Assembly: GCF_019430945.1 (NCBI RefSeq) | Contig: NZ_JAHYCB010000004.1 | Span: 186,001-250,000 of the forward strand | Length of the DNA: 64,000 nucleotides | Direction of reading: 5' to 3' | Origin: Neorhizobium populisoli | GTDB taxonomy: Bacteria; Pseudomonadota; Alphaproteobacteria; Rhizobiales; Rhizobiaceae | Shown here: positions 27,528 to 38,689 of the stretch, piece by piece | How positions within the stretch are numbered: the first letter of the stretch is position 1 | Layout of the letters: each line of letters starts with the position of its first letter | The notes under the pieces: generated by a model | What the model saw: the letters and a program-made list of their open reading frames with translations, nothing else | Told to the model about the DNA's origin: nothing | Databases searched by the model: none | Program-made: the position numbers and the translations under genes

Positions 27528-29207
27528 TCACGCGAGCCGTCGGTGCACTTGCGGATCAGGGATCGGAACGGCAGCCATTAGCGCCCGTGTGTAGTTGTGC
27601 TGCGGATTTTCGAAGATTTCCCGGCGCGTGCCGCTTTCGACGATCGAGCCGTCGCGCATGACCGCGACCTTGTGGGACATCTTTTCAACTACGGCCATGT
27701 CGTGAGAGATGAAGAGGTAGGAAAGCCTCATCGTCTCCTGCAGTTCGAGCAGCAGATCCAGCACCCGTGCCCGCACCGAAACGTCAAGCGCCGCAACGCT
27801 TTCATCCGCAACGATCAGTTTCGGATGGAGGGCCAAAGCGCGGGCGATGCAGATACGCTGCCGCTGGCCGCCGGAAAATTCGTGCGGATAACGGGTTGCG
27901 GCATCGGGCGTCAACCCGACACGGCGCAACAGTTCGGCCACACGGTCTTCCCGCTCGCTCCGGTCGGCAATGCCATGGATGACCATCGGTTCCGCAATCG
28001 CCCGGCCGACCGCCATGCGTGGATCGAGCGAAGCGTAGGGATCCTGAAAGATCATCTGTGCCGAACGCCGCACCGGCTGCATTTCCCGTTGGCTGAGCGA
28101 CCCGATTTTCTGGCCGTCGATCATCACGTGACCGGTGAAGGGAATGAGGCCGAGCACCGCCTTGCCGGTCGTCGATTTGCCCGATCCGCTTTCTCCGACA
28201 AGGCCCAGCGTCTCGCCGGGTGCGATGTCGAAGGACACGTTCTTCACGGCGCTGACCGGCGGTTTGCCCTTGAAGAGTTTTCCGGCCGTGCTGCCGTAGC
28301 TGACATTCAGCCCGCGGACGTTCAGGATCGGTGAACGGTCGGCCGCAGCGGTCTCGTTTGATACCGGCGTGATCCGTGGCGGCCCGCTGGTGCCCGCATG
28401 GGCACCAAGGCGGGGAACGGCTGCCAGTAGCTGCTGCGTATAGCTCTCCTTCGGCCGGGCGAAGATTTCGACAGCATCGCCCTGTTCGACGATCCGGCCG
28501 TTCTGCATGATCACGACGCGATCGGCCATTTCCGCCACCACGCCCATGTCATGGGTGATGAGGATAATAGACGTGTCGAATTCGCTTTTCAGCTCCCGCA
28601 TCAGCTTCAACGTCTGCGCCTGAACTGTCACGTCCAACGCCGTGGTCGGCTCGTCGGCGATCAACACTTTCGGCCGGCAGGAGAGTGCCATGGCGATCAT
28701 CACCCGCTGCCGCATGCCGCCGGAAAGCTCGTGCGGGAACTGCTTCATCCGCCGTGCCGGCTCGGTGATGTGGACGGCATCCAGCATCTGCAGCGCGACC
28801 GCCTCGGCGTTTTCACGCCCCTGATGCTCGCGGATCGCCTCGGTCAGCTGCGTGCCGATTGAGATGACCGGGTTGAGCGAGGTCATCGGTTCCTGGAAGA
28901 TCATCGCGATCTCACCGCCGCGCACGCTGCGCATCGCCCGGTCGGAGAATTTCGTCAGGTCGCGGTCGCCGAGCAGGATGCTGCCAGAGGCGATCTTCAG
29001 CGATGCCTTCGGCAGCAGTCCCATGATCGACAGCGACGTGACGGATTTGCCCGACCCGGATTCACCGGCGATACAGAGCGTCTCTCCGCCCGCAAGGTCG
29101 AAGGAGACGTTCTGCAGCACCGGCTTGCGCCCCTCGGGCGTCCGCGCGTCGACATTGAGGTCGCGGACACTGAGGATGGGCGGAGAGATGGCGACAGGAC
29201 CGGTCAC
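27528..29207 (-). CDS. Fused peptide/opine-type ABC transporter ATPase (two nucleotide-binding domains)
   Basis: This 559-residue protein joins the OppD-like and OppF-like ATPases in one chain. Each half has its own Walker A (GESGSGKSVTS near residue 55 and GESGSGKSTTGK near residue 345), signature (LSGGMRQR and FSGGQRQR) and Walker B (VLIADEPTTALDV and LIVADESVAALDV). The second Walker B has DES in place of DEP, seen in some family members. The start is GTG at 29207, overlapping the stop of the amidase by 4 nt (GTGA). It energises the two permeases further upstream in the operon. It is the last gene before the terminator. Confidence 0.93.
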   Translation of the reverse strand: MTGPVAISPPILSVRDLNVDARTPEGRKPVLQNVSFDLAGGETLCIAGESGSGKSVTSLSIMGLLPKASLKIASGSILLGDRDLTKFSDRAMRSVRGGEIAMIFQEPMTSLNPVISIGTQLTEAIREHQGRENAEAVALQMLDAVHITEPARRMKQFPHELSGGMRQRVMIAMALSCRPKVLIADEPTTALDVTVQAQTLKLMRELKSEFDTSIILITHDMGVVAEMADRVVIMQNGRIVEQGDAVEIFARPKESYTQQLLAAVPRLGAHAGTSGPPRITPVSNETAAADRSPILNVRGLNVSYGSTAGKLFKGKPPVSAVKNVSFDIAPGETLGLVGESGSGKSTTGKAVLGLIPFTGHVMIDGQKIGSLSQREMQPVRRSAQMIFQDPYASLDPRMAVGRAIAEPMVIHGIADRSEREDRVAELLRRVGLTPDAATRYPHEFSGGQRQRICIARALALHPKLIVADESVAALDVSVRARVLDLLLELQETMRLSYLFISHDMAVVEKMSHKVAVMRDGSIVESGTRREIFENPQHNYTRALMAAVPIPDPQVHRRLA

Positions 29208-30148
29208 GCGAAAACGATCCGAGGGAAGTAGAAGGACACGACCCAGTTCGGCATGTCGACGATCTCGCTGATGCGAAGATCACCGCAGACCGAGCAGAGC
29301 ATATAGGCATCGACCGGGCTCAAGCCATGTTCGGCGGTCAAGAGATCGATCATCCGCATGACGCTTTCGCGCGCTCCGGTCATTAGGTCCGGGCCGATAC
29401 CGGTGGTCACTTCGTAGCCCATGCCGTCGAGATGGCGGGTAACCGGCTCCGTCGTGGTAAAGCGCGGCGTCTGCAGGTTGGCACCCTTCACGAGATCGAT
29501 CGTCGCCTCGACATTCATCTGGCTCTCGATCGCCGTGCCGCACACTTCGCCGTCGCCCTGGGCCGCGTGGGTATCGCCGATCGAAAACAGCGCGCCCTCC
29601 ACCTCGATCGGCAGATAGAGCGTCACGCCGGCCGTCAGGTCGCGAATATCCATGTTACCACCGACGCGGCGCGGCGGCACGACGGAGTGAGTGCCGGGTT
29701 CGGCCGGAGCGCAGCCGATCGTGCCGGCAAACGGCTTCAGCGGCACGCGGCCGCCAGGGCCGAAAAGCGCCGGAACCATGCTATTGGCATCATAGGACCA
29801 GACATGCAGCGCCGGGTCCTTGAACTGGTCGGCCAGCAGGCCGAAGCCCGGAATATTGGCAGTCCAGCCCATGCCGGACGGAATGAACTTGCGCAGCGTC
29901 ACCTTCAATGCGTCGCCCGGCATGGCGCCCTCGACATACACAGGGCCGGACACCGGGTTGATCTTGCCGAAATCGAGATTGTTCAGCGTGTCAAGCGTCG
30001 CATCACGGCCGAGCTGGCCGCCGGAGGAATCGAGGCATTCGAAATGGATCGTCTCGCCCGGCTTGGCGATAATGGCCGGCGCGAAATCGCGGTTCCAGCC
30101 GAAATTATGCTGGGCGCGGTGGATAGTATGGCTGCAGGCGATGCACAT
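29204..30148 (-). CDS. fmdA: Acetamidase/formamidase family amide hydrolase
   Basis: This 314-residue enzyme belongs to the FmdA_AmdA family, which hydrolyses formamide, acetamide and similar short amides to ammonia and the acid. Typical segments are GETIHFECLDSSGGQ, VYVEGAMPGDALKV, GCAPAEPGTHSVVPPRRVGG, and GDTHAAQGDGEVCGTAIES. I chose the ATG at 30148 because GGGAGA lies 7 nt upstream; a longer form would start in the repeat. It belongs to the amiC-led operon, which points to an amide as the true substrate. The metal and active-site residues cannot be proven by eye. Confidence 0.92.
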   Translation of the reverse strand: MCIACSHTIHRAQHNFGWNRDFAPAIIAKPGETIHFECLDSSGGQLGRDATLDTLNNLDFGKINPVSGPVYVEGAMPGDALKVTLRKFIPSGMGWTANIPGFGLLADQFKDPALHVWSYDANSMVPALFGPGGRVPLKPFAGTIGCAPAEPGTHSVVPPRRVGGNMDIRDLTAGVTLYLPIEVEGALFSIGDTHAAQGDGEVCGTAIESQMNVEATIDLVKGANLQTPRFTTTEPVTRHLDGMGYEVTTGIGPDLMTGARESVMRMIDLLTAEHGLSPVDAYMLCSVCGDLRISEIVDMPNWVVSFYFPRIVFA

Positions 30149-30341: not shown

Positions 30342-31958
30342 TTACTTCGTCACATAAATCGCGTCGTAATTGATGACGCGGGTCGGGTCGATGTAGATGT
30401 TGTCACCACCGCCCATGCGCATCGACTTGGCCACGACGCGGCGTTCGTTGATGACCGGGATCCACGGTGCATCGGCCATGATGTCGGTGAAGACCTTGCC
30501 CCAGGCGGCGGTGCGCTCCGCACCCTTGGCCGGGTCGGACATCGAGTCGGCCGCAACCGCGCGGGCGTCGAGGTCCTTGTTGCAGTACCACGACCAGTTC
30601 CAGCCGCCCGGCACCGCGCCGGCGCAGCCGAGGATCGGGCCGTAGAAGTTTGACGCATCCGGGAAGTCGGCGATCCAGGCCATGCCGCCCGACCAGATCA
30701 TCGGCGCTTCACCTTCGGTGCCGCCGGCCGCGATGACGTTCGCCTGTGCGAGCGCCCGGACTTCCGCCTTCACGCCGACTGCCGCAAGATCCTGCTGGAT
30801 CGCCTGGGCGATACGCGGCTGCGGATCGGTATTGGTCGAATAGAGCACGGTTTCGAAGCCGTTCGGGAAGCCGGCTTCGGCAAGCAGGGCTTTAGCCTTC
30901 GCGACGTCATAGGCATAACCCTTGAAGCCCTTGTCGTAACCCGGCATTGCCGGCGGCAGCGGCTGGTTGGCGGGCGTTGCGCGGCCATTCAGGATACGGG
31001 TGATGCGATCCTTGTTGATCGCCATGTTCATCGCCTGGCGAACCTTGACGTTGTCGAAGGGCTTCACCTTGGTGTTGAGCGTCACATAACCGGTGTGCAG
31101 CTGCTCGCCGTCGACGATCATCTTGGCGCCGTCGGCGGAGTTCTTGATTTCCAGAAACTTTGCCGGCGGAATGCCGTCGCCGGCGATATCGACCTCGCCC
31201 TTCTGCAGGCGCAGCAGCGCCACCAGCGGCTCCTGGCCGACTTCGACGGTGAACTTGTCGACATGCGGCATGTCCTTGACGTAGTAGTTCGGGTTCTTCT
31301 CGAACACCAGCCGCTGGCCGATCGTCCATTCCTTGAGCGTGAACGTGCCCGAACCGACCGGCTTCTTGCCGAAATCGCCGCCGGCCGCCTCGACCGCTTC
31401 CTTCGGCACGACGGAGGCGAAGTTGATCGCCATCACATGCAGGAAGGTCGCGTCGGGGCGCGACAGGGTGAAGACGACGGTGCCGGCATCCGGCGTGGTA
31501 ATGCCTTCGAGACCGGTTGCCTTGCCGGCCGTCAGGTCCTCATGTCCCTTGATCGCACCGAAGAAGCCGGCGCCCGGTCCTTGCGTCTTCGGATCGACGG
31601 CGCGCTCGATAGAGTATTTCACGTCGGAAGCGACCATTTCGCGGCCGTTCGAAAATTTTACACCCTTGCGGAGCTTGAACGTATAGGTCAGGCCGTCCGG
31701 CGAAACGGTAAAACTTTCCGCCAGCGACGGAACGAGCTTGGACGTGCCCGGCTCATAGTCCATCAGGCGGGAAAAGAGGCTCTTGATCATCGACCAGTTG
31801 TTCCAGTCGTAACCGATCGCCGGGTCGAGCGTGGTGACGTCATCCTTGAAGGTGACGACGACATCGCCGCCCTGGGTGACGGATTGGGCCATGGCGGCCA
31901 TCGGTGCAAGCGCGACCATGGTCGCGACAGTCGTCTGTCGAAGCCAGCGTTTGAACAT
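30342..31958 (-). CDS. Peptide-type ABC transporter substrate-binding protein (SBP family 5)
   Basis: This 538-residue periplasmic receptor has a signal peptide (FKRWLRQTTVATMVALAPMAAMAQ). The family 5 pattern is clear: DVVVTFKDDVTTLDPAIGYD at the mature start, then ESFTVSPDGLTYTFKLRKGVKFSNG. Such proteins bind di- or oligopeptides, nickel, opines or other polar ligands. I chose the ATG at 31958 (AAGGGGA ribosome site) over a longer form. In this operon the ligand is likely an amide or amidated compound that the amidase then hydrolyses. Confidence 0.93.
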   Translation of the reverse strand: MFKRWLRQTTVATMVALAPMAAMAQSVTQGGDVVVTFKDDVTTLDPAIGYDWNNWSMIKSLFSRLMDYEPGTSKLVPSLAESFTVSPDGLTYTFKLRKGVKFSNGREMVASDVKYSIERAVDPKTQGPGAGFFGAIKGHEDLTAGKATGLEGITTPDAGTVVFTLSRPDATFLHVMAINFASVVPKEAVEAAGGDFGKKPVGSGTFTLKEWTIGQRLVFEKNPNYYVKDMPHVDKFTVEVGQEPLVALLRLQKGEVDIAGDGIPPAKFLEIKNSADGAKMIVDGEQLHTGYVTLNTKVKPFDNVKVRQAMNMAINKDRITRILNGRATPANQPLPPAMPGYDKGFKGYAYDVAKAKALLAEAGFPNGFETVLYSTNTDPQPRIAQAIQQDLAAVGVKAEVRALAQANVIAAGGTEGEAPMIWSGGMAWIADFPDASNFYGPILGCAGAVPGGWNWSWYCNKDLDARAVAADSMSDPAKGAERTAAWGKVFTDIMADAPWIPVINERRVVAKSMRMGGGDNIYIDPTRVINYDAIYVTK

Positions 31959-31986
31959 TTTAGTTCCCCTTCTCTCTGGTTTGCGG

Positions 31987-32907
31987 TCAACGGGTGCGGA
32001 TACGCGGGTCGATGACCGGCGCAATGAGATCGGCAAGCAGGTTGCCGAGAACAATGGCGAGCGCAGACGTCAGCGTCACGCCCATGATGATCGGAATGTC
32101 CACCTGCTGGATCGCCTGCCAGGCCAGCTGGCCGATGCCCGGCCAGCCGTAGACGGCTTCGACGACCACGACACCGCCCATGAACTGGCCGATATCGATG
32201 CCGATCATGGCGATGATCGGCAGAATGGCGTTCGGCAGCGCGTGGCGGAAGATGATGCGGCGGGCGGAAAGCCCCTTGGCGCGGGCGGTGCGCACATAAT
32301 CCTGGTTCAGCACGTCGATCATCGCCGAGCGCACCATGCGGGCATACCAGCCGGCACCGAGCACGCCGAGCGTCAATGCGGGCAGGACCACATGCGCGAA
32401 CGTGCCGTAACCGCTCATCGGGAACCAGCCGAGCGTGGCTGCAAAGACATAAAGAAGCAGCAGTGCGACGACGAATTGCGGTGCGGAAACGCCGACAAAG
32501 GAGGCCATCATCACCAGCCGGTCGACTATTCCGCCGCGGCGAACGGCGGCAATGGTGCCGAGCAGAAGGCCGAGCATGACTTCCACGACGATGCCGGCCA
32601 GCATCAGCGTCAGCGTCGCCGGCAGGCGGGCGACAATCAGCGTCGCAACATCGGTCTTCTGGGCGTAGGAACGGCCGAGATTGCCTTGTAGCAGATTGGT
32701 AAGGTAGGTCCAGAACTGCACGAGGAACGGCTGGTCGAGGCCAAGTTCGCGGCGGATATTTGCGACAGTCTGCGCGGTCGCGCTGCGGCCCGCGATCATT
32801 CGCGCCGGATCGGCCGGCAGCGCGTAAAGCAGCAGGAAGGTGATCGCGGCCACGCCGAGCAGGATCAACGCTATCTGCACGAGACGCCGGAAAAAGAGAA
32901 ATGCCAT
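31987..32907 (-). CDS. Peptide-type ABC transporter permease (DppB/OppB type)
   Basis: This 306-residue permease has six hydrophobic segments and the DppB-type patterns RRLVQIALILLGVAAITFLL and LGLDQPFLVQFWTYL at the start. The cytoplasmic EAA loop (YVRTARAKGLSARRIIFRHA) is intact. It pairs with the next permease upstream. Its start overlaps the stop of that gene by 1 nt (TGATG), so the two are coupled. Confidence 0.93.
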   Translation of the reverse strand: MAFLFFRRLVQIALILLGVAAITFLLLYALPADPARMIAGRSATAQTVANIRRELGLDQPFLVQFWTYLTNLLQGNLGRSYAQKTDVATLIVARLPATLTLMLAGIVVEVMLGLLLGTIAAVRRGGIVDRLVMMASFVGVSAPQFVVALLLLYVFAATLGWFPMSGYGTFAHVVLPALTLGVLGAGWYARMVRSAMIDVLNQDYVRTARAKGLSARRIIFRHALPNAILPIIAMIGIDIGQFMGGVVVVEAVYGWPGIGQLAWQAIQQVDIPIIMGVTLTSALAIVLGNLLADLIAPVIDPRIRTR

Positions 32908-33755
32908 CAGCCTCTCCCCCGCTGTGTCGGATCAAGAATGTCGCGCAGCGCATCACCGACCAGATTGAAGGAAAGGGCGGTGAGCAGGATGATCGCGCCG
33001 GGGAAAAAGACCAGCCAGGGTGCCGCCTGAAAGTAGCTCTGGCTTTCGAAGATGATATTGCCCCAGGACGGCTGCGGCGGCTGCACGCCGATACCGAGGA
33101 AGGACAGCGTCGCTTCGAGCAGCACGGTCGTGGCGATGCCGAGCGTGCCCCAGACGATCGCCGTCGGGATCAGATGCGGCAGGATGTGCAGGAACAGGAT
33201 GCGACCATGGCCGGCGCCGAGCGAACGCTCGGCCATGATGAAATCCCGCTCCACCAGGCCGCGCGTCTCCGTATAGACGATGCGGGCGATCTGCACCCAG
33301 TTGACCATGGCGATCACCATCGCGACGATCCAGAGGCTCGGCCTCAGGAGTGCTGCGAGAACGATCGCCAGTAGCAGCGCCGGAAAGGCCATCATAAGGT
33401 CGGTGAAGCGCATCAGAAGTGTGCCGAGGAAACCGCGCAGGTAACCGGCGACGATGCCGACGAGGAGGCCGATGCCGACCGCGATTCCGTTTGCCACGAG
33501 GCCGATGATCAGCGATGTGCGTGCACCGAACAACAAACGGGAGAAGAGGTCGCGGCCGAGCGTATCAGTGCCGAGCAGGAAATCACCGCCGGGCGGCAGC
33601 GGCGCGCCTTCCAGCGACAGGCCATCGAACATCTGATTATCGGGATCGAACGGCGCGATCCATGGGGCAGCAACGGCCAGCACGATGACTGCCAGCACGA
33701 TGACAAGCCCGAACAGCGCGGTGGGCTGGCGGACGAGTGACTTCAACACATGCAT
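32907..33755 (-). CDS. Peptide-type ABC transporter permease (DppC/OppC type)
   Basis: This 282-residue permease has the DppC-type N-terminal extracytoplasmic part (WIAPFDPDNQ, FLLGTDTLGRDLFSRLLFG) and the EAA loop (LVERDFIMAERSLGAGHGRI). About six membrane segments are visible. Its ATG overlaps the ANTAR gene stop by 1 nt. Together with the DppB-like partner it forms the import channel of the amide operon. Confidence 0.93.
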   Translation of the reverse strand: MHVLKSLVRQPTALFGLVIVLAVIVLAVAAPWIAPFDPDNQMFDGLSLEGAPLPPGGDFLLGTDTLGRDLFSRLLFGARTSLIIGLVANGIAVGIGLLVGIVAGYLRGFLGTLLMRFTDLMMAFPALLLAIVLAALLRPSLWIVAMVIAMVNWVQIARIVYTETRGLVERDFIMAERSLGAGHGRILFLHILPHLIPTAIVWGTLGIATTVLLEATLSFLGIGVQPPQPSWGNIIFESQSYFQAAPWLVFFPGAIILLTALSFNLVGDALRDILDPTQRGRG

Positions 33756-34339
33756 CAGATTGCCTCCGGCAGAGGCTCAGCACCGCCGAGAATAAAGGCG
33801 GCGATCTGTTCCATCGGCAAGCGGCGACGCATGGCGCAGTCGCGCAACAGGCGGTAGGCGCCCTCCTCGTCAAGCTTACGGGCTGCCATCAACTTCTCGA
33901 CGGCGGCATGCACGAGGGGGCGAAGGCGGACACGTTCTTCCAGATGCTGAAGCTTGTCAGCGACGGCTTTTCGCTCTTCGTGGATCGAAAGCGCCATGAC
34001 CAGTGCCGGATAAACGGCGGAAGTGGCGATCGGCTTGGCGATGATGGCGCCTGCGCCGCAGCCAAGCGCCCAGGCGATACGGCCCGGTGCTTCCGAGCCG
34101 AGCAGTGCCACGACCGGCTTCGGCGGATTTTCCTTTTCCCAGGGCAGAAGATCGTCGAACCCCTGGTCCGCATCGACCAGAACGATATCCGGCAAGTCGG
34201 CGGCCGCGAGCGGCAACCATTGCTGGGTGGCGCGAATGCCGAGCAGGCCGAACTGGCGCATCAGTCGCTCGGTATTGCTGTCTTCCCGGTGCAGGATGGC
34301 GGCGCTCCAGCCGGTGAAATTGGGCGTGTGGCTGATCAT
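33755..34339 (-). CDS. amiR: ANTAR-domain antiterminator (AmiR type)
   Basis: This 194-residue protein has a pseudo-receiver N-terminal half (WSAAILHREDSNTERLMRQ, DIVLVDADQGFDDL) and a C-terminal ANTAR region (residues about 125-185: a long coiled coil, VEKLMAARKLDEEGAYRLLRD and RRRLPMEQIA). ANTAR proteins bind a pair of RNA hairpins and stop an intrinsic terminator from forming. It overlaps amiC by 4 nt, the same pairing as AmiC-AmiR of Pseudomonas, in which AmiC holds AmiR inactive until an amide binds. A terminator with competing hairpins lies in the leader at 35491-35589, a natural target. Confidence 0.9.
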   Translation of the reverse strand: MISHTPNFTGWSAAILHREDSNTERLMRQFGLLGIRATQQWLPLAAADLPDIVLVDADQGFDDLLPWEKENPPKPVVALLGSEAPGRIAWALGCGAGAIIAKPIATSAVYPALVMALSIHEERKAVADKLQHLEERVRLRPLVHAAVEKLMAARKLDEEGAYRLLRDCAMRRRLPMEQIAAFILGGAEPLPEAI

Positions 34340-35472
34340 GACACCACCCTCAGATGCGGCGTAGGCTTCTGGGTGCCGCGGGCGAGATAAGGGTCGGCAA
34401 CGATTGCCGGCCGTGAGGCGATCACGTCAAACCCGTTTTCGGCATTGATCCGGCCGAGATGGAAGGGCAGGGCGGCGTGATTGGTGGCCGGATCGAAGGC
34501 AATATTGCCGAGCACAGACGGCCAGATGCGGGAGACGATTTCCCGCCGAACCGCCGCCGGCTCATCGCTGCCGCTAGCCTCGATTGCTGCAATGCAAAGC
34601 GTGACGGCGGCATAGGCGCTGGCGAAAATGCTGGAGACTTTGCGTGGCTCAGGCTGCCATGTGCGCAGGCGGGCTTGGAAGGCGCGGTTCTCGGCCGAGC
34701 TCAGGCTGTCGAAATAGGGCAAAGCCGAAAGCTGGCCGATCGCTACACCGGCCTTGATATCATCCAGCTCGCATTCGGTCAGGTCGCAGCTGGCGATAGG
34801 GCAATTTTCCGGCAGGAAGGCCGGATCGCGCTTTCCCAATTCATGCATGGCGGCGAGGAAGGCATAGCTGGACGGGCCGATGAAATTGTTGAGGATGAAA
34901 CTCGGTCGCTTCTCGGCAATGTCGGCGACGATGCGTTCCACCGCCGTCTCTTCGAGCGGCAGATAACGTTCGCCGAGCACTTCACCGCCGGCATTGGCGA
35001 CGAGCTCGCGGGCCAGCCGGTTCATTTCCCAGCCCCAGACATAGTTGGCACCGGCGAGATAAGGCCGGGCGCCGTGACGCGGGATCAGGTAATCGAACAG
35101 CGGGATGAGATGCTGGTTCGGGCAGCTGCCGAGATAAATGACGTTTTCGTTCGCCTCGAAGCCTTCGAACGGGCACATATACCATAGCAGCCCGTCGTGT
35201 TTCTCCACCAGCGGGATGACTTCTTTGCGGGCCGAGGATGTGATCGTGCCGATGATGTGACGGCAACCCTGGTCGCGGATCAGGCTGCGGGCGCCTTCCA
35301 GATAGGCGGAAAGATCGGCGCGTGGGTCAAAAAAGCAGAACTCGATCTGCCGGCCGCCATTGGCGCGATATTCCGAAAGGGCAAATTCCGCTGCATCCCA
35401 GGCGTCGCGTCCGAGCGCGCCGTAAGGACCTGTCCTGGAATAAAGAATGCCGATTTTCAGCGGCTCAATCAT
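34336..35472 (-). CDS. amiC: Amide-sensing negative regulator (AmiC type, periplasmic-binding fold)
   Basis: This 378-residue protein resembles AmiC and urea-type receptors (EPLKIGILYSRTGPYGALGRD, RADLSAYLEGARSLI, GCRHIIGTITSSARKEV, YVWGWEMNRLARELVA). It has no signal peptide, so it is cytoplasmic like AmiC. AmiC binds short amides and releases AmiR. I use the ATG at 35472; a TTG four codons earlier is possible. It is the first gene of the operon. The pocket residues cannot be judged by eye, so the true ligand is open. Confidence 0.9.
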   Translation of the reverse strand: MIEPLKIGILYSRTGPYGALGRDAWDAAEFALSEYRANGGRQIEFCFFDPRADLSAYLEGARSLIRDQGCRHIIGTITSSARKEVIPLVEKHDGLLWYMCPFEGFEANENVIYLGSCPNQHLIPLFDYLIPRHGARPYLAGANYVWGWEMNRLARELVANAGGEVLGERYLPLEETAVERIVADIAEKRPSFILNNFIGPSSYAFLAAMHELGKRDPAFLPENCPIASCDLTECELDDIKAGVAIGQLSALPYFDSLSSAENRAFQARLRTWQPEPRKVSSIFASAYAAVTLCIAAIEASGSDEPAAVRREIVSRIWPSVLGNIAFDPATNHAALPFHLGRINAENGFDVIASRPAIVADPYLARGTQKPTPHLRVVS

Positions 35473-35490
35473 TCGAATACCCAAAAAACC

Positions 35491-35537
35491 AAAAACCCCA
35501 TGACGCGGTCCCGCCGCAAGGGCGGGGCATCATGGGG
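35491..35537 (-). terminator. Intrinsic terminator in the amiC leader
   Basis: On the minus-strand RNA, CCCCATGA (35537-35530) pairs with TCATGGGG (35503-35496). An inner stem CCCGCC/GGCGGG (35526-35521 with 35515-35510) closes a GCAAG-type loop. The hairpin is followed at once by TTTTTGGTTTTTT. It ends about 20 nt before the amiC start, so it would stop transcription of the whole operon unless antiterminated. Confidence 0.8.
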
Positions 35538-35589
35538 CGAAACTGCCCGGCGACTATAGGAGTCATTTAATGCGGAATGCCTAATCCGC
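35535..35589 (-). promoter_or_regulatory. Candidate antiterminator hairpins in the amiC leader
   Basis: Reading the minus strand from the likely transcript start, there are three stems: GCGGA/TCCGC (35589-35572), GACT/AGTC (35564-35552) and GGGC/GCCC (35548-35535) with a six-base loop AGTTTC. The last stem shares three bases with the 5' arm of the terminator, so the two cannot form together. This is the arrangement used by ANTAR regulators. The loop starts with A but lacks the G expected at position 4, so the fit is partial. Confidence 0.5.
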
Positions 35590-35597
35590 GTGCTTGA

Positions 35598-35626
35598 ATA
35601 AAATACAGGCAGGAGGGGCTTGTCAA
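35598..35626 (-). promoter_or_regulatory. Promoter of the amide operon
   Basis: On the minus strand a perfect TTGACA (35626-35621) is followed after 17 nt by TTTTAT (35603-35598), or after 15 nt by TATTTT. Transcription would start near 35591, just before the first leader hairpin. The promoter needs no activator by its look, which fits control by termination. Confidence 0.65.
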
Positions 35627-35693: not shown

Positions 35694-37628
35694 TTATGCT
35701 GAATAGGCGATCCTGAACCGGGCCACGATATCTCCCTCGCACCACATCGGGAAATTGGTGCCCCATTTATTATTGTGCAGGTTGAAGCGGATGCCTTTGG
35801 CGAAGCTCGGGCGTGTCGTGCAGAAGGTCATGAAATCGCAGCTCTGCGGCGCGACAAGGGGTGTATCCAGCGGCTCGATCGTCAACACGCCGTCTGCCGA
35901 TGTACCCTTTACGGCGCTCACGGCCTGAAGCTGGGCGCCGCCGCTTTCAGCGATTCGATCCGAGGCGTGCCACAGGTCCATCTTCTTCAAGCTCCAGTCC
36001 GAAGTTTCAGCTGGAGTAAAGGATAGGAAGCTCGCTTCCGGCATGCGGTTGGCGGGTTTGCCGTGCATGACGAGCGTCAGAAGCAGCGCGTCGCCATCTT
36101 CCGCCAAGCGCAGGGAAACCAGTGGCGCGGCTCCCAAGAGGGTGCTCGCCTCATCGGGGAGCGAAAGGATTGCGGCTGCCCCTTCCGCTGCGTCCAGAGA
36201 GGGCGTAAAGATTTTCGAAAGTCCTGCGCCGGATGCTTCAAGGCCCGGCTTGTCGTGGTCGAGGATCGCCCATTCCTGCCGGTGTGTCAGGTAGGTATCC
36301 ATATGACGGGCCATATCGGCGGCGTCGTAGCTTTCATAGCGGTAACCGATCAAGGAGCTGTCGTGACCGGCGATCTTCCGGCCTGTCGGAGTGACGATGG
36401 CGGTTATGTCGCCGGTCTTGGGGTCGAGATCGGCGGACCATGCCCCCACGGTTAGTGTCTTGGAATTTCGGCTGATTTTGAGAGAAGCAGGTACCGTCAG
36501 AGCGGCCACGGCTTCATCTGCGGCCTTGCGATCTGCCCCTTCCAGTGCCGAAACAGCCTGATCGATATAGGCCCGCTGTTCCGCCCAGGAGGCCTCAGAA
36601 TAGGCGAACCGATAATCCGTTGCGCGGGCCGCCTCGAAATCCTTGCGCGACCATGCCTTGTCGTCCCGCAGATAGGTTTTGATGTCCACGCCGCATGTAT
36701 GTTCGGCAACCATGGCAAGTCCACGGCCGAAAGCGAGGCGGTTTGGGGTCAGGTCCTCCGCTGCGAACCTGTCGTAGAGGCGCTGAAGCGCAAGGAAACG
36801 CGCTGTCTTCTGCGGGTCCGTAGCGCTGCCGTGAATCCAACTGTCCCCGAGCTCGATGTCAAGGACCGGGAAACGTTCGCGAGCATCCCAGAGAAGCTGG
36901 CCATAGTCTTCCAGCGTTGCAGCGCGGATGGCCGCTCCCGGCGCCAGGTGGCGCATCTCGCGATAGACGTCGGCGGTCTGCGCCACGCTCTGCGGGCCGA
37001 TATTGTCGCTCGTATGGGCAAAGCTCAGCGCGTCGCTCATCCCGTCCGGGAAATAGGTCTCGCCATAGGAGCGCTGGTACATGACGACGATTTCCTCACC
37101 ATCCGGAGCCCGCCAGCGGAATACATCCGGCACATTCGGCGGCGGAGATGCGGTATTGACGCCGAGATGCAGGAAGCGGATGCCGGCTTCGGCCAAGAGC
37201 GGCACCATACCGAGCGTATGGCCCGGCACATCGGTCATCTTGGCTGCGATCGTCGTCTTGCCGAAACGGCGGTCGAGTTCCTGCGAATAGGACAGGCCAG
37301 CGCGCAGAAGTGCGGGCGACATCAGTTCCGTATGGGTCGTATAGGGCAGGCCGTGCCAGCGGATCAGGCCGCGCTCGATCGCCTGTTCCAGGCGTTTGAC
37401 CTCGTCCGGCGAGCGCGAATTGAGGTGATCCCAGATCAACCAGGCGCCGGTCGTCCAGATGAAGCGCGGCTCGACAGGGTTCTCGGCGAAGAAATGCGCG
37501 CCGGTCTCGATCGCCTGCGGAATGAACCGCTCGTGATATTGTTTGCGGATCTTCTCTGCGTGATCCGTAAACCCGATATCGAGATGGGTCTTGAAGACCA
37601 GATGTACGCGTTTTTCTGTCATTTCCAT
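35694..37628 (-). CDS. DUF5054 protein, glycoside hydrolase family 38-like
   Basis: This protein of about 644 residues has an N-terminal GH38-like barrel (KRVHLVFKTHLDIGFTDHAEK, FIWTTGAWLIWDHLN, IRWHGLPYTTHTE, MTDVPGHTLGMVPLLAEAGI). The HLDIGFT motif matches the metal-binding start of alpha-mannosidase-type enzymes, and Asp in DVPGH may be the nucleophile. The C-terminal half is beta-rich. There is no signal peptide, so it should act in the cytoplasm on an imported sugar. I chose the ATG at 37628; an earlier TTG at 37655 overlaps the lacI-like stop and a later ATG at 37622 is also possible. The substrate is unknown. Confidence 0.85.
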   Translation of the reverse strand: MEMTEKRVHLVFKTHLDIGFTDHAEKIRKQYHERFIPQAIETGAHFFAENPVEPRFIWTTGAWLIWDHLNSRSPDEVKRLEQAIERGLIRWHGLPYTTHTELMSPALLRAGLSYSQELDRRFGKTTIAAKMTDVPGHTLGMVPLLAEAGIRFLHLGVNTASPPPNVPDVFRWRAPDGEEIVVMYQRSYGETYFPDGMSDALSFAHTSDNIGPQSVAQTADVYREMRHLAPGAAIRAATLEDYGQLLWDARERFPVLDIELGDSWIHGSATDPQKTARFLALQRLYDRFAAEDLTPNRLAFGRGLAMVAEHTCGVDIKTYLRDDKAWSRKDFEAARATDYRFAYSEASWAEQRAYIDQAVSALEGADRKAADEAVAALTVPASLKISRNSKTLTVGAWSADLDPKTGDITAIVTPTGRKIAGHDSSLIGYRYESYDAADMARHMDTYLTHRQEWAILDHDKPGLEASGAGLSKIFTPSLDAAEGAAAILSLPDEASTLLGAAPLVSLRLAEDGDALLLTLVMHGKPANRMPEASFLSFTPAETSDWSLKKMDLWHASDRIAESGGAQLQAVSAVKGTSADGVLTIEPLDTPLVAPQSCDFMTFCTTRPSFAKGIRFNLHNNKWGTNFPMWCEGDIVARFRIAYSA

Positions 37629-37651
37629 TTCAATCAGCCGATCAATTCCAT

Positions 37652-38689
37652 TCAACCCACCGTGCCGCGCACGACGAGCCGCGTCCCGAGCGTCTCCGTC
37701 AACGGGCCGTCTTCGGGGTTCCTGAGGCGCCGGAGGATGAGGCGCACGAGGGCGCGTACGCGGTCCTCGAGATCGATCCGGACAGTGGTGAGATTGTAGG
37801 CCTTCCAGTGCGACTGTGGGATGTCGTCGAAGCCGACGACCTTGACGTCGCCCGGTACCGAAAGGCCAAGATCGTGGCGCAAGGCATCAATCGCCCCGAA
37901 GGCGCCGACGTCGTTGGCGGCGAAGATCGCATCGGCGCCATCCTCGACCCGAAAGAGATCGAGCGTAGCCCTATAGGCGGTGTCATAGGTATAGTCGCTG
38001 TCGATGACGGTCGGGGGCTGCATGCCGCGTTCGGCGAGGATTTCGGTGATCATCCGCTCGCGCTCCCGGTTGGCGAGCGACTGCCGCTTGCCGCCGAGAT
38101 AGGCGACGCGGCGCACGCCATAGCCCTGCAACAGCGCGATCGCCTGTTCGATGCCATCCCGCTGGCGCACCAGCAGACGGTCGTAGAGACTGGAGGACTT
38201 GTCCGCGAATTGCGCGCCGTCGTCATAGATGACGTAGATCGGCACGGCACGGTCTAGAAAACCGGTCAGCACGTCAGGTTCGACATTCTCGGTGAAGGCG
38301 ATGACCGAGTCCGGGTTGAAACCGCGCATATAGGTGAGCAGCGTATGGTCCATGCTGAAATCGGCTTTTGCCTTGAACAGCAGGGTGGCGAAACCTTCGG
38401 CCTGCAGCGCCGTGGTCAGTGTGTCGATCTCCTGGCTCTCCCAGGGCGAACAGACATCCGGCACGATCATGCCGACCAGATGTGAGCGGCGGGTGACGAG
38501 CGAGCGGGCCGCCATATCCGGCGTATAGTTCAGTTCGCGGGCGATCTGCAGGATGCGGTCGCGCTTTTCCGGCTTCAGCGAAGCATTCGGATTGAAGGCG
38601 CGCGAGACTGCGACGCGTGAGACATTCGCTTCGCGTGCCACGAGATCGGCTGTGGCGCGGGCGCTTTTCCTGTCGTTTCGTTCGCTCAT
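37652..38689 (-). CDS. LacI-family transcriptional regulator
   Basis: This 345-residue repressor has an N-terminal LacI HTH (ATADLVAREANVSRVAVSRA then FNPNASLKPEKRDRI) with the hinge helix near residue 60 (AARSLVTRRSHLVG), followed by a sugar-binding domain. Two identical 14-bp operator-like sites lie upstream, one near its own start and one before the transporter. It probably represses both itself plus the DUF5054 gene and the divergent transport operon until a sugar binds. It is co-transcribed with the GH38-like gene downstream. Confidence 0.93.
   Translation of the reverse strand: MSERNDRKSARATADLVAREANVSRVAVSRAFNPNASLKPEKRDRILQIARELNYTPDMAARSLVTRRSHLVGMIVPDVCSPWESQEIDTLTTALQAEGFATLLFKAKADFSMDHTLLTYMRGFNPDSVIAFTENVEPDVLTGFLDRAVPIYVIYDDGAQFADKSSSLYDRLLVRQRDGIEQAIALLQGYGVRRVAYLGGKRQSLANRERERMITEILAERGMQPPTVIDSDYTYDTAYRATLDLFRVEDGADAIFAANDVGAFGAIDALRHDLGLSVPGDVKVVGFDDIPQSHWKAYNLTTVRIDLEDRVRALVRLILRRLRNPEDGPLTETLGTRLVVRGTVG

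Follow-up and report, generated by a model that had tools for sequence, protein, structure and literature searches.

The RNA targets of ANTAR proteins carry an A at position 1 (A1) and a G at position 4 (G4) of both of their hexaloops, as stated in PMC3369931, PMC8934654, PMC7496416 and PMC8164766, the last of which puts A1/G4 conservation above 50% in actinobacteria. The EutV system (PMC3369931 and PMC8934654) consists of an ANTAR protein and two small hairpins, P1 and P2, the second of which lies over an intrinsic terminator. The linkers between the two hairpins are 5–12 nt long in E. faecalis eut leaders, and induction of the eutP system was reduced when the linker was 3 nt (PMC3369931). 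The survey in PMC8164766 accepted linkers of 2–25 nt, and both it and PMC3369931 describe the prediction of ANTAR targets with covariance models seeded on two A1/G4 hexaloops. In the NasS–NasT system, a ligand-binding partner is likewise combined with an ANTAR protein that acts on a leader (PMC3795266).

The Pseudomonas amiE leader is a further described system, and two papers from 2012 (PMC3369931 and PMC3369936) state that both of its loops carry A1 and G4. The amiE leaders of four Pseudomonas genomes (L092–L095), in which P. aeruginosa is represented by strain PA7, display a P1 of the form CAUC-AGCGUC-GAUG (with the stem CGUC..GACG in L095), which has A1 and G4. Their P2 loops, AAAUGG, AAAUGG, AAAUGA and AAAUAA, have A1 and U4, and a blind P2/terminator scanner selected the same P2 in all four. 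The U4 of these four genomes against the printed G4 is a point to check and not a correction. Mapping of 3′ ends has revealed early termination at the Pseudomonas amiE leader (PMC8297930), evidence for the mechanism in the founding system and not in the leader described here.

That leader lies in Neorhizobium populisoli (assembly GCF_019430945.1, contig NZ_JAHYCB010000004.1, positions 186,001–250,000), in a 64,000-nt stretch of DNA that is called the window and whose numbering is used throughout. It resembles the amiE leaders in its TTGAC promoter, in a P2 hexaloop with A1 and U4 positioned over a terminator and in the AmiC- and AmiR-like genes downstream. It differs in P1, which is a canonical hexaloop about 23–30 nt 5′ of P2 in Pseudomonas but not a hexaloop in the window, and in its position, as the Pseudomonas leader precedes amiE whereas the window leader precedes amiC. 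The amiE enzyme belongs to a family different from FmdA, the family of the window operon's enzyme. No paper on alphaproteobacterial AmiR leaders was among the entries listed by searches of an open-licence library. Comparison of sequences makes it very probable that positions 35626–35491 (minus strand) hold the promoter and an attenuator for an operon of amide uptake and hydrolysis, controlled by AmiR-mediated antitermination.

The leader and its operon

A sequence-only reading of the window had described a promoter with TTGACA, three small hairpins, a GC-rich terminator and a T5GGT6 tract ahead of amiC, and all of these elements are found where it had placed them. On the minus strand, the −35 element TTGACA (35621–35626) is separated by a 17-nt spacer from a −10-like TTTTAT (35598–35603), which is weak, with a match at four of six positions, unlike the TATTTTAAT that occupies this place in many orthologues. 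Folding predicts hairpin P0 (GCGGA..UCCGC, 35572–35589) at what is presumably the start of the transcript. Comparison of leaders identifies AAAU (35565–35568) as the window form of a conserved ACAU located directly 5′ of P1 (GACU-CCUAU-AGUC, 35552–35564), and P1 is followed by P2 (GGGC-AGUUUC-GCCC, 35535–35548), which, judging by its sequence and conservation, is presumed to be both the antiterminator and the AmiR site. The stem of the intrinsic terminator, derived from folding and alignment, has 11 pairs (35496–35537) and runs into the T5GGT6 tract (35483–35495); the ATG of amiC is at 35472, 18 nt past T5. The three bases that P2 had been said to have in common with the terminator are the three C of 35537–35535, which makes the two structures mutually exclusive.

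In folding calculations the 128-nt leader reaches −49.9 kcal/mol (z = −2.41), a value equalled by 6 of 200 shuffles. When growing prefixes were folded, P0, P1 and P2 had all formed at 60 nt, and the terminator had taken the place of P2 by 98 nt. Generic promoter and terminator scans list neither the leader promoter, because its −10 fails the scan rule, nor the leader terminator, whose absence is probably explained by a bulge in its stem. Given the promoter and terminator missed by these scans, the case made by the single sequence is modest, and the argument rests on conservation.

The operon downstream comprises seven genes, all on the minus strand. The product of amiC (34336–35472) is an amide-sensor-like protein of the periplasmic-binding fold (Peripla_BP_5, 335 bits) whose best PDB match is AmiC 1pea (E = 1.8e-45). 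It adjoins amiR (33755–34339), the operon's second gene, which encodes an AmiR_N pseudo-receiver (34.5 bits, cut-off 27) joined to an ANTAR domain (47.1 bits, cut-off 27.3) and has AmiR 1qo0 as its best PDB match (E = 9.9e-12), so that an AmiC-like binding protein stands next to an AmiR_N–ANTAR protein. Family searches assign the remaining genes to ABC permeases of the OppC/DppC (32907–33755) and OppB/DppB (31987–32907) types, an ABC substrate-binding protein (SBP_bac_5, 30342–31964), an enzyme of the acetamidase/formamidase family (FmdA_AmdA, 29204–30148) and a fused double ABC ATPase resembling DppD–DppF (27528–29207). The same seven gene kinds occur in identical order in Shinella zoogloeoides and Rhizobium johnstonii. 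One AmiC position in the alignment is T in 1pea, N in 1qnl and C in the window protein, and the ligand may therefore differ. On the 5′ side of the leader lie a gene for a large protein (35694–37655) that matches no NCBIfam family at 1e-10, and a gene for a LacI-family-like regulator (37652–38689); together they look like a separate locus.

Conservation, covariation and linkage to amiR

Searches for AmiR gave matches in 73 of 247 genomes of the family at E ≤ 1e-20 and in 33 of 394 at E ≤ 1e-55, in 11 of 57 genomes of the genus (E ≤ 1e-20), 12 of 297 of the order (E ≤ 1e-45) and 62 of 398 of the phylum (E ≤ 1e-8). Among loci L001–L061, amiC adjoins amiR in 60, the window locus included, and L002 is without amiC. 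A GGC-N6-GC[C/T] hairpin is present about 63–117 nt 5′ of amiC in 60 of 60 loci (the terminator-proximal match was used in L041 and L045, which have two each), where distances for distant loci are approximate since their amiC starts were estimated by tblastn. A hexaloop with A1 is found 60–120 nt 5′ of amiC in 59 of the 60 loci; after dinucleotide shuffling of these upstream sequences, such a hexaloop occurred in 1.7% of the shuffles. The blind scanner recovered 48 of the 60 known loci and gave seven other matches; its 4-bp rule loses stems of 3 bp.

These data bear on an alternative explanation of the hairpin, namely that it is the ordinary terminator of the upstream gene, whose stop is at 35694, with P2 as a by-product of the GC-rich arm. 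Two co-directional genes do flank the hairpin and the generic scans flag no promoter between them. Yet TTGAC occurs 57–95 nt 5′ of P2 in 47 of 48 family-I leaders, accompanied in 42 of them by a −10-like sequence from a permissive list of variants; the genes upstream of amiC differ between the two annotated relatives, S. zoogloeoides and R. johnstonii; P1 exhibits compensatory changes; and A1 of the P2 loop is invariant in all 48 aligned leaders. We consider an upstream terminator very unlikely.

Pairing was evaluated in an alignment of the 48 leaders whose amiC products are at least 55% identical, which leaves 12 of the 60 loci outside the pair counts. The sequence-only reading had named a failure of the hairpins to be conserved in orthologues as evidence against it; the pairing of P1, P2 and the terminator is kept. 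In P1, both partners have changed at each of the four pairs; 85.2% of cells are paired, and the innermost pair is open in 17 rows. In P2 all cells (100%) are paired, yet three of four pairs are invariant, and a MAFFT gap in its 3′ arm caused five rows to be scored as gaps at one pair. The terminator has 96.9% of cells paired and changes on both sides at 7 of 11 pairs. For P1 and P2 combined, 92.7% of cells are paired compared to 87.5% in shuffles and 29.9–59.3% in slid controls, and 25 cells are changed on both sides versus 3.5 in shuffles, a number that 0 of 500 shuffles attained; further pair types in P1 and P2 are not above shuffles (105 of 500 reach the observed count). For P1 plus terminator the corresponding figures are 93.9% of cells paired and 62 cells changed on both sides versus 9.1 in shuffles. 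The rows are related, so these shuffles overstate independence and serve as a control and not as a probability.

Alignment column 67, which is common to P2 and the terminator, changes from C to U in seven rows. Four of these rows have A at the P2 partner (column 53) and two have A at the terminator partner (column 112); L014 has both changes. Such covariation with both partners supports the upkeep of both exclusive structures. The anatomy of the leader, the mutual exclusion of P2 and the terminator, the conservation of both and their place 5′ of amiC–amiR are what the sequence comparison shows.

Other parts of the leader are looser. The P0 region folds better than z = −1 relative to mononucleotide shuffles in 39 of 46 leaders tested, in registers that differ, and a single conserved register of P0 is ruled out. 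A GATTARGCA-like stretch just 3′ of the promoter (35590–35570 in the window) recurs, and a loose pattern for it matches 29 of 46 leaders; it is without explanation in the P0 pairing, and its possible roles are an initial-transcript element or a protein site. The pattern A[ACT]AT is present 19–22 nt 5′ of P2 in 44 of 48 leaders. Pairing of CACAUGAC with the 3′ arm of the terminator is ruled out, as CACAUGAC is constant while the arm changes.

To relate the leader to amiR, a covariance model (R1) was run against 394 genomes of the family with strict filters and 10 candidates scored per genome, so that absences are soft. It gave 47 matches, 46 of which lie 1.1–1.3 kb 5′ of an amiR; the window genome has one match. 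The 34 strong matches (E ≤ 8.2e-10) cover all 33 genomes with AmiR at E ≤ 1e-55, although leaders of 31 of these 33 genomes are rows of the R1 training alignment and were recovered by construction, which leaves only three of the 34 independent. Thirty-three of the strong matches are 1134–1147 nt from amiR, and the 34th (L128) is directly 5′ of amiC–amiR. In L128 the leader scores well, while the tblastn matches to amiC and to amiR are split over two frames each, suggestive of a sequencing error or recent decay. None of the 13 weak matches comes from the training set; 12 of them lie 1124–1309 nt 5′ of the gene for another type of AmiR, which shares about 40% identity with the window AmiR (amiC was checked in five of these 12 loci), and one (G070) has neither an amiC nor an amiR match nearby.

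This linkage weighs against the leader sensing an amide or nitrogen signal directly, as a riboswitch, or through a protein other than AmiR. The P1 loop, which is unconserved among relatives, and P0, which ANTAR binding does not explain, would fit such a scheme. Set against this are the 46 of 47 R1 matches 5′ of an amiR, a P2 whose A1 hexaloop and C–G closing pair form the ANTAR signature except for G4, and the Rfam search, in which no family reached its gathering score in the window and three sub-threshold chance matches fell in the leader. Sensing of this kind is very unlikely. The earlier proposal, an attenuation leader before amiC–amiR that is probably targeted by AmiR, fits the conservation, the covariation and the linkage of R1 to amiR.

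Departures from the ANTAR consensus and the reading of loop position 4

The window leader has the EutV-like combination of a cognate ANTAR protein, two small hairpins and a P2 that overlaps a mutually exclusive intrinsic terminator. It departs in several respects from EutV targets, in which both hairpins have A1/G4 hexaloops and are joined by linkers 5–12 nt long (PMC3369931 and PMC8934654). P2 is a hexaloop in 60 of 60 loci, so that the expected pair of six-base-loop hairpins holds for P2; it does not hold for P1, a hairpin of about 12–14 nt whose loop is the 5-nt CCUAU in the window and mostly 3–7 nt in relatives. The window P1 loop does not begin with A, and A1 is accordingly present in one hairpin and not in both. 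The P1–P2 linker is 3 nt in the window, outside the E. faecalis eut range. The P2 loop opens with A in 59 of 60 loci, and its fourth base is never G but U (39 loci), A (19) or C (two). The absence of G4 noticed in the window loop, AGUUUC (A1, U4), which had suggested a divergent ANTAR target, is thus a family property and not a feature of the window sequence alone. Judged by sequence, the leader fails as a canonical dual-hexaloop ANTAR target in P1 loop size, P1 A1, G4 and linker length. Despite these departures it would work like a canonical target, being a switch of the expected kind with a family-wide change in the loop. Two substitutes for a P1 hexaloop were rejected: an A-initial hexaloop with at least three pairs within 33 nt 5′ of P2 occurs in 9 of 48 leaders at differing places, and a stem closing the hexaloop ACAUGA (AAG-ACAUGA-CUU) can pair in no leaders other than L016, L018 and L042.

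We infer AmiR binding, its release by amide and the resulting read-through, and propose the following model. By default, the transcript would fold into P0, P1 and P2, after which the stronger terminator would invade the 3′ arm of P2 and transcription would stop at the T-tract. Binding of an amide to AmiC would release AmiR, which would then bind and stabilize P2 and might make its second contact at P1 or at the ACAU flanking P1. With P2 held, the terminator would be blocked, and the operon, from amiC and amiR to the transporter and acetamidase genes, would be expressed. This class of AmiR would be presented with a loop of the form A1-N-N-U/A/C4 in place of A1-N-N-G4. The points against AmiR antitermination include the 3-nt linker, the lack of a P1 hexaloop and of G4 (both needed by EutV), the low variability of P2, the missing equivalents of EutV Lys143, Lys147 and Lys149 and the weak −10.

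The protein side was examined by a gapless alignment to EutV, in which chain numbering is two above the residue numbers of the paper. EutV Arg142, Glu160, Tyr164 and Met172 correspond to R140, E158, Y162 and M170 of the window AmiR. V147 takes the place of Lys149, the residue by which EutV coordinates G4 of P2 (PMC8934654). Position 149 is V in 37, I in eight, L in two and M in one of the 48 family-I AmiRs, and V in seven, T in four and I in one of the 12 of family II; Lys143 and Lys147 are likewise not conserved in this AmiR. The Tyr164 equivalent is kept in 48 of 48 family-I and 8 of 12 family-II proteins, that of Met172 in all 60 and that of Arg175 in all 48 of family I; these three kept residues speak for AmiR antitermination. 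Position 149 is Lys in EutV, in the NasT-like protein of the window genome and in the four Pseudomonas AmiRs; the latter four have His in place of Tyr164 and Gln in place of Arg142.

The phylum search added 27 loci (L062–L088), 25 of which have an amiC match (L085 and L088 do not); where such a locus had several hairpin matches, the one adjoining the terminator was taken. In L062–L072 the loop has A1 in 11 of 11 and G4 in 0 of 11. Two loci depart from this: L073, whose AmiR has Ile149 and whose two hexaloops, AAAGAU and a terminator-associated AAUGCA, both carry A1 and G4, and L084, with AAUGAA (A1, G4) at the terminator and Val149. As Lys149 is absent from these two AmiRs with G4 loops, its loss alone fails to explain the loop change; the Pseudomonas AmiRs, which combine Lys149 with U4, also break any simple rule.

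Two accounts of position 4 within the AmiR mechanism have to be weighed. In the first, AmiR does not read this position, its specificity being relaxed, and there is no new recognition code. Stacking by Tyr164 might take any base, and U, A and C all occur; the Pseudomonas AmiRs with Lys149 and U4, together with Ile149 and Val149 beside the G4 loops of L073 and L084, show that Lys149 does not track position 4. On the other hand, G4 is missing from 71 of 73 leaders (all except L073 and L084), which would be odd if any base were tolerated, an objection weakened by shared ancestry. We regard relaxed specificity as a serious candidate, somewhat short of an even chance. In the second account, this class of AmiR reads changed letters, that is, one A1-N-N-W4 hexaloop plus the upstream ACAU-hairpin versus two A1-N-N-G4 hexaloops; in a bolder form, the ACAU 5′ of P1 would be a second A-N-N-U contact made outside a hexaloop. 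The G4 loops of L073 (its second) and L084 weaken this changed-code reading and strengthen the relaxed-specificity one, and we put the changed code forward tentatively, as the less favoured of the two. Leaders of this kind could be missed or scored low by models built on two A1/G4 hexaloops.

The window genome contains two ANTAR matches, the window AmiR and the NasT-like protein, the gene of which has neighbours that we take, from their resemblance, to be nasS and nitrate genes. A leader adjoining nasTS (L091 8472–8590; contig C34 near 30.5 kb) lies 5′ of likely nitrate transporter genes and carries two A1/G4 hexaloops, AACGGC on an 11-bp stem and ACCGAC on a 3-bp stem. The likely NasT target thus differs from the AmiR leader in having canonical loops, and its NasT keeps Lys149. 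These sequences suggest that two ANTAR systems with distinct loops operate in one cell, with NasT presumably acting at the nitrate leader. A changed loop code, if true, would insulate AmiR and NasT antitermination from each other within the cell. The two leaders, sharing a genome, lend themselves to the study of RNA choice by ANTAR proteins and of the avoidance of cross-talk.

The remaining distant loci are heterogeneous. Ten others of the 25 loci with an amiC match have no A1 hexaloop at the T-tract in the upstream DNA examined. The AmiR-like ANTAR proteins of L075, L077, L082 and L087 have Thr at the position of Met172, the loss of which abolished RNA binding by EutV, and the DNA examined 5′ of their amiC-like genes has no T4 run. 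L078 and L081 have an A1 hexaloop 131–134 nt upstream, away from the terminator. In these two and in L079 and L083, the amiC-like gene follows a similar GC-rich terminator whose adjacent hexaloop starts with G, possibly representing another leader type.
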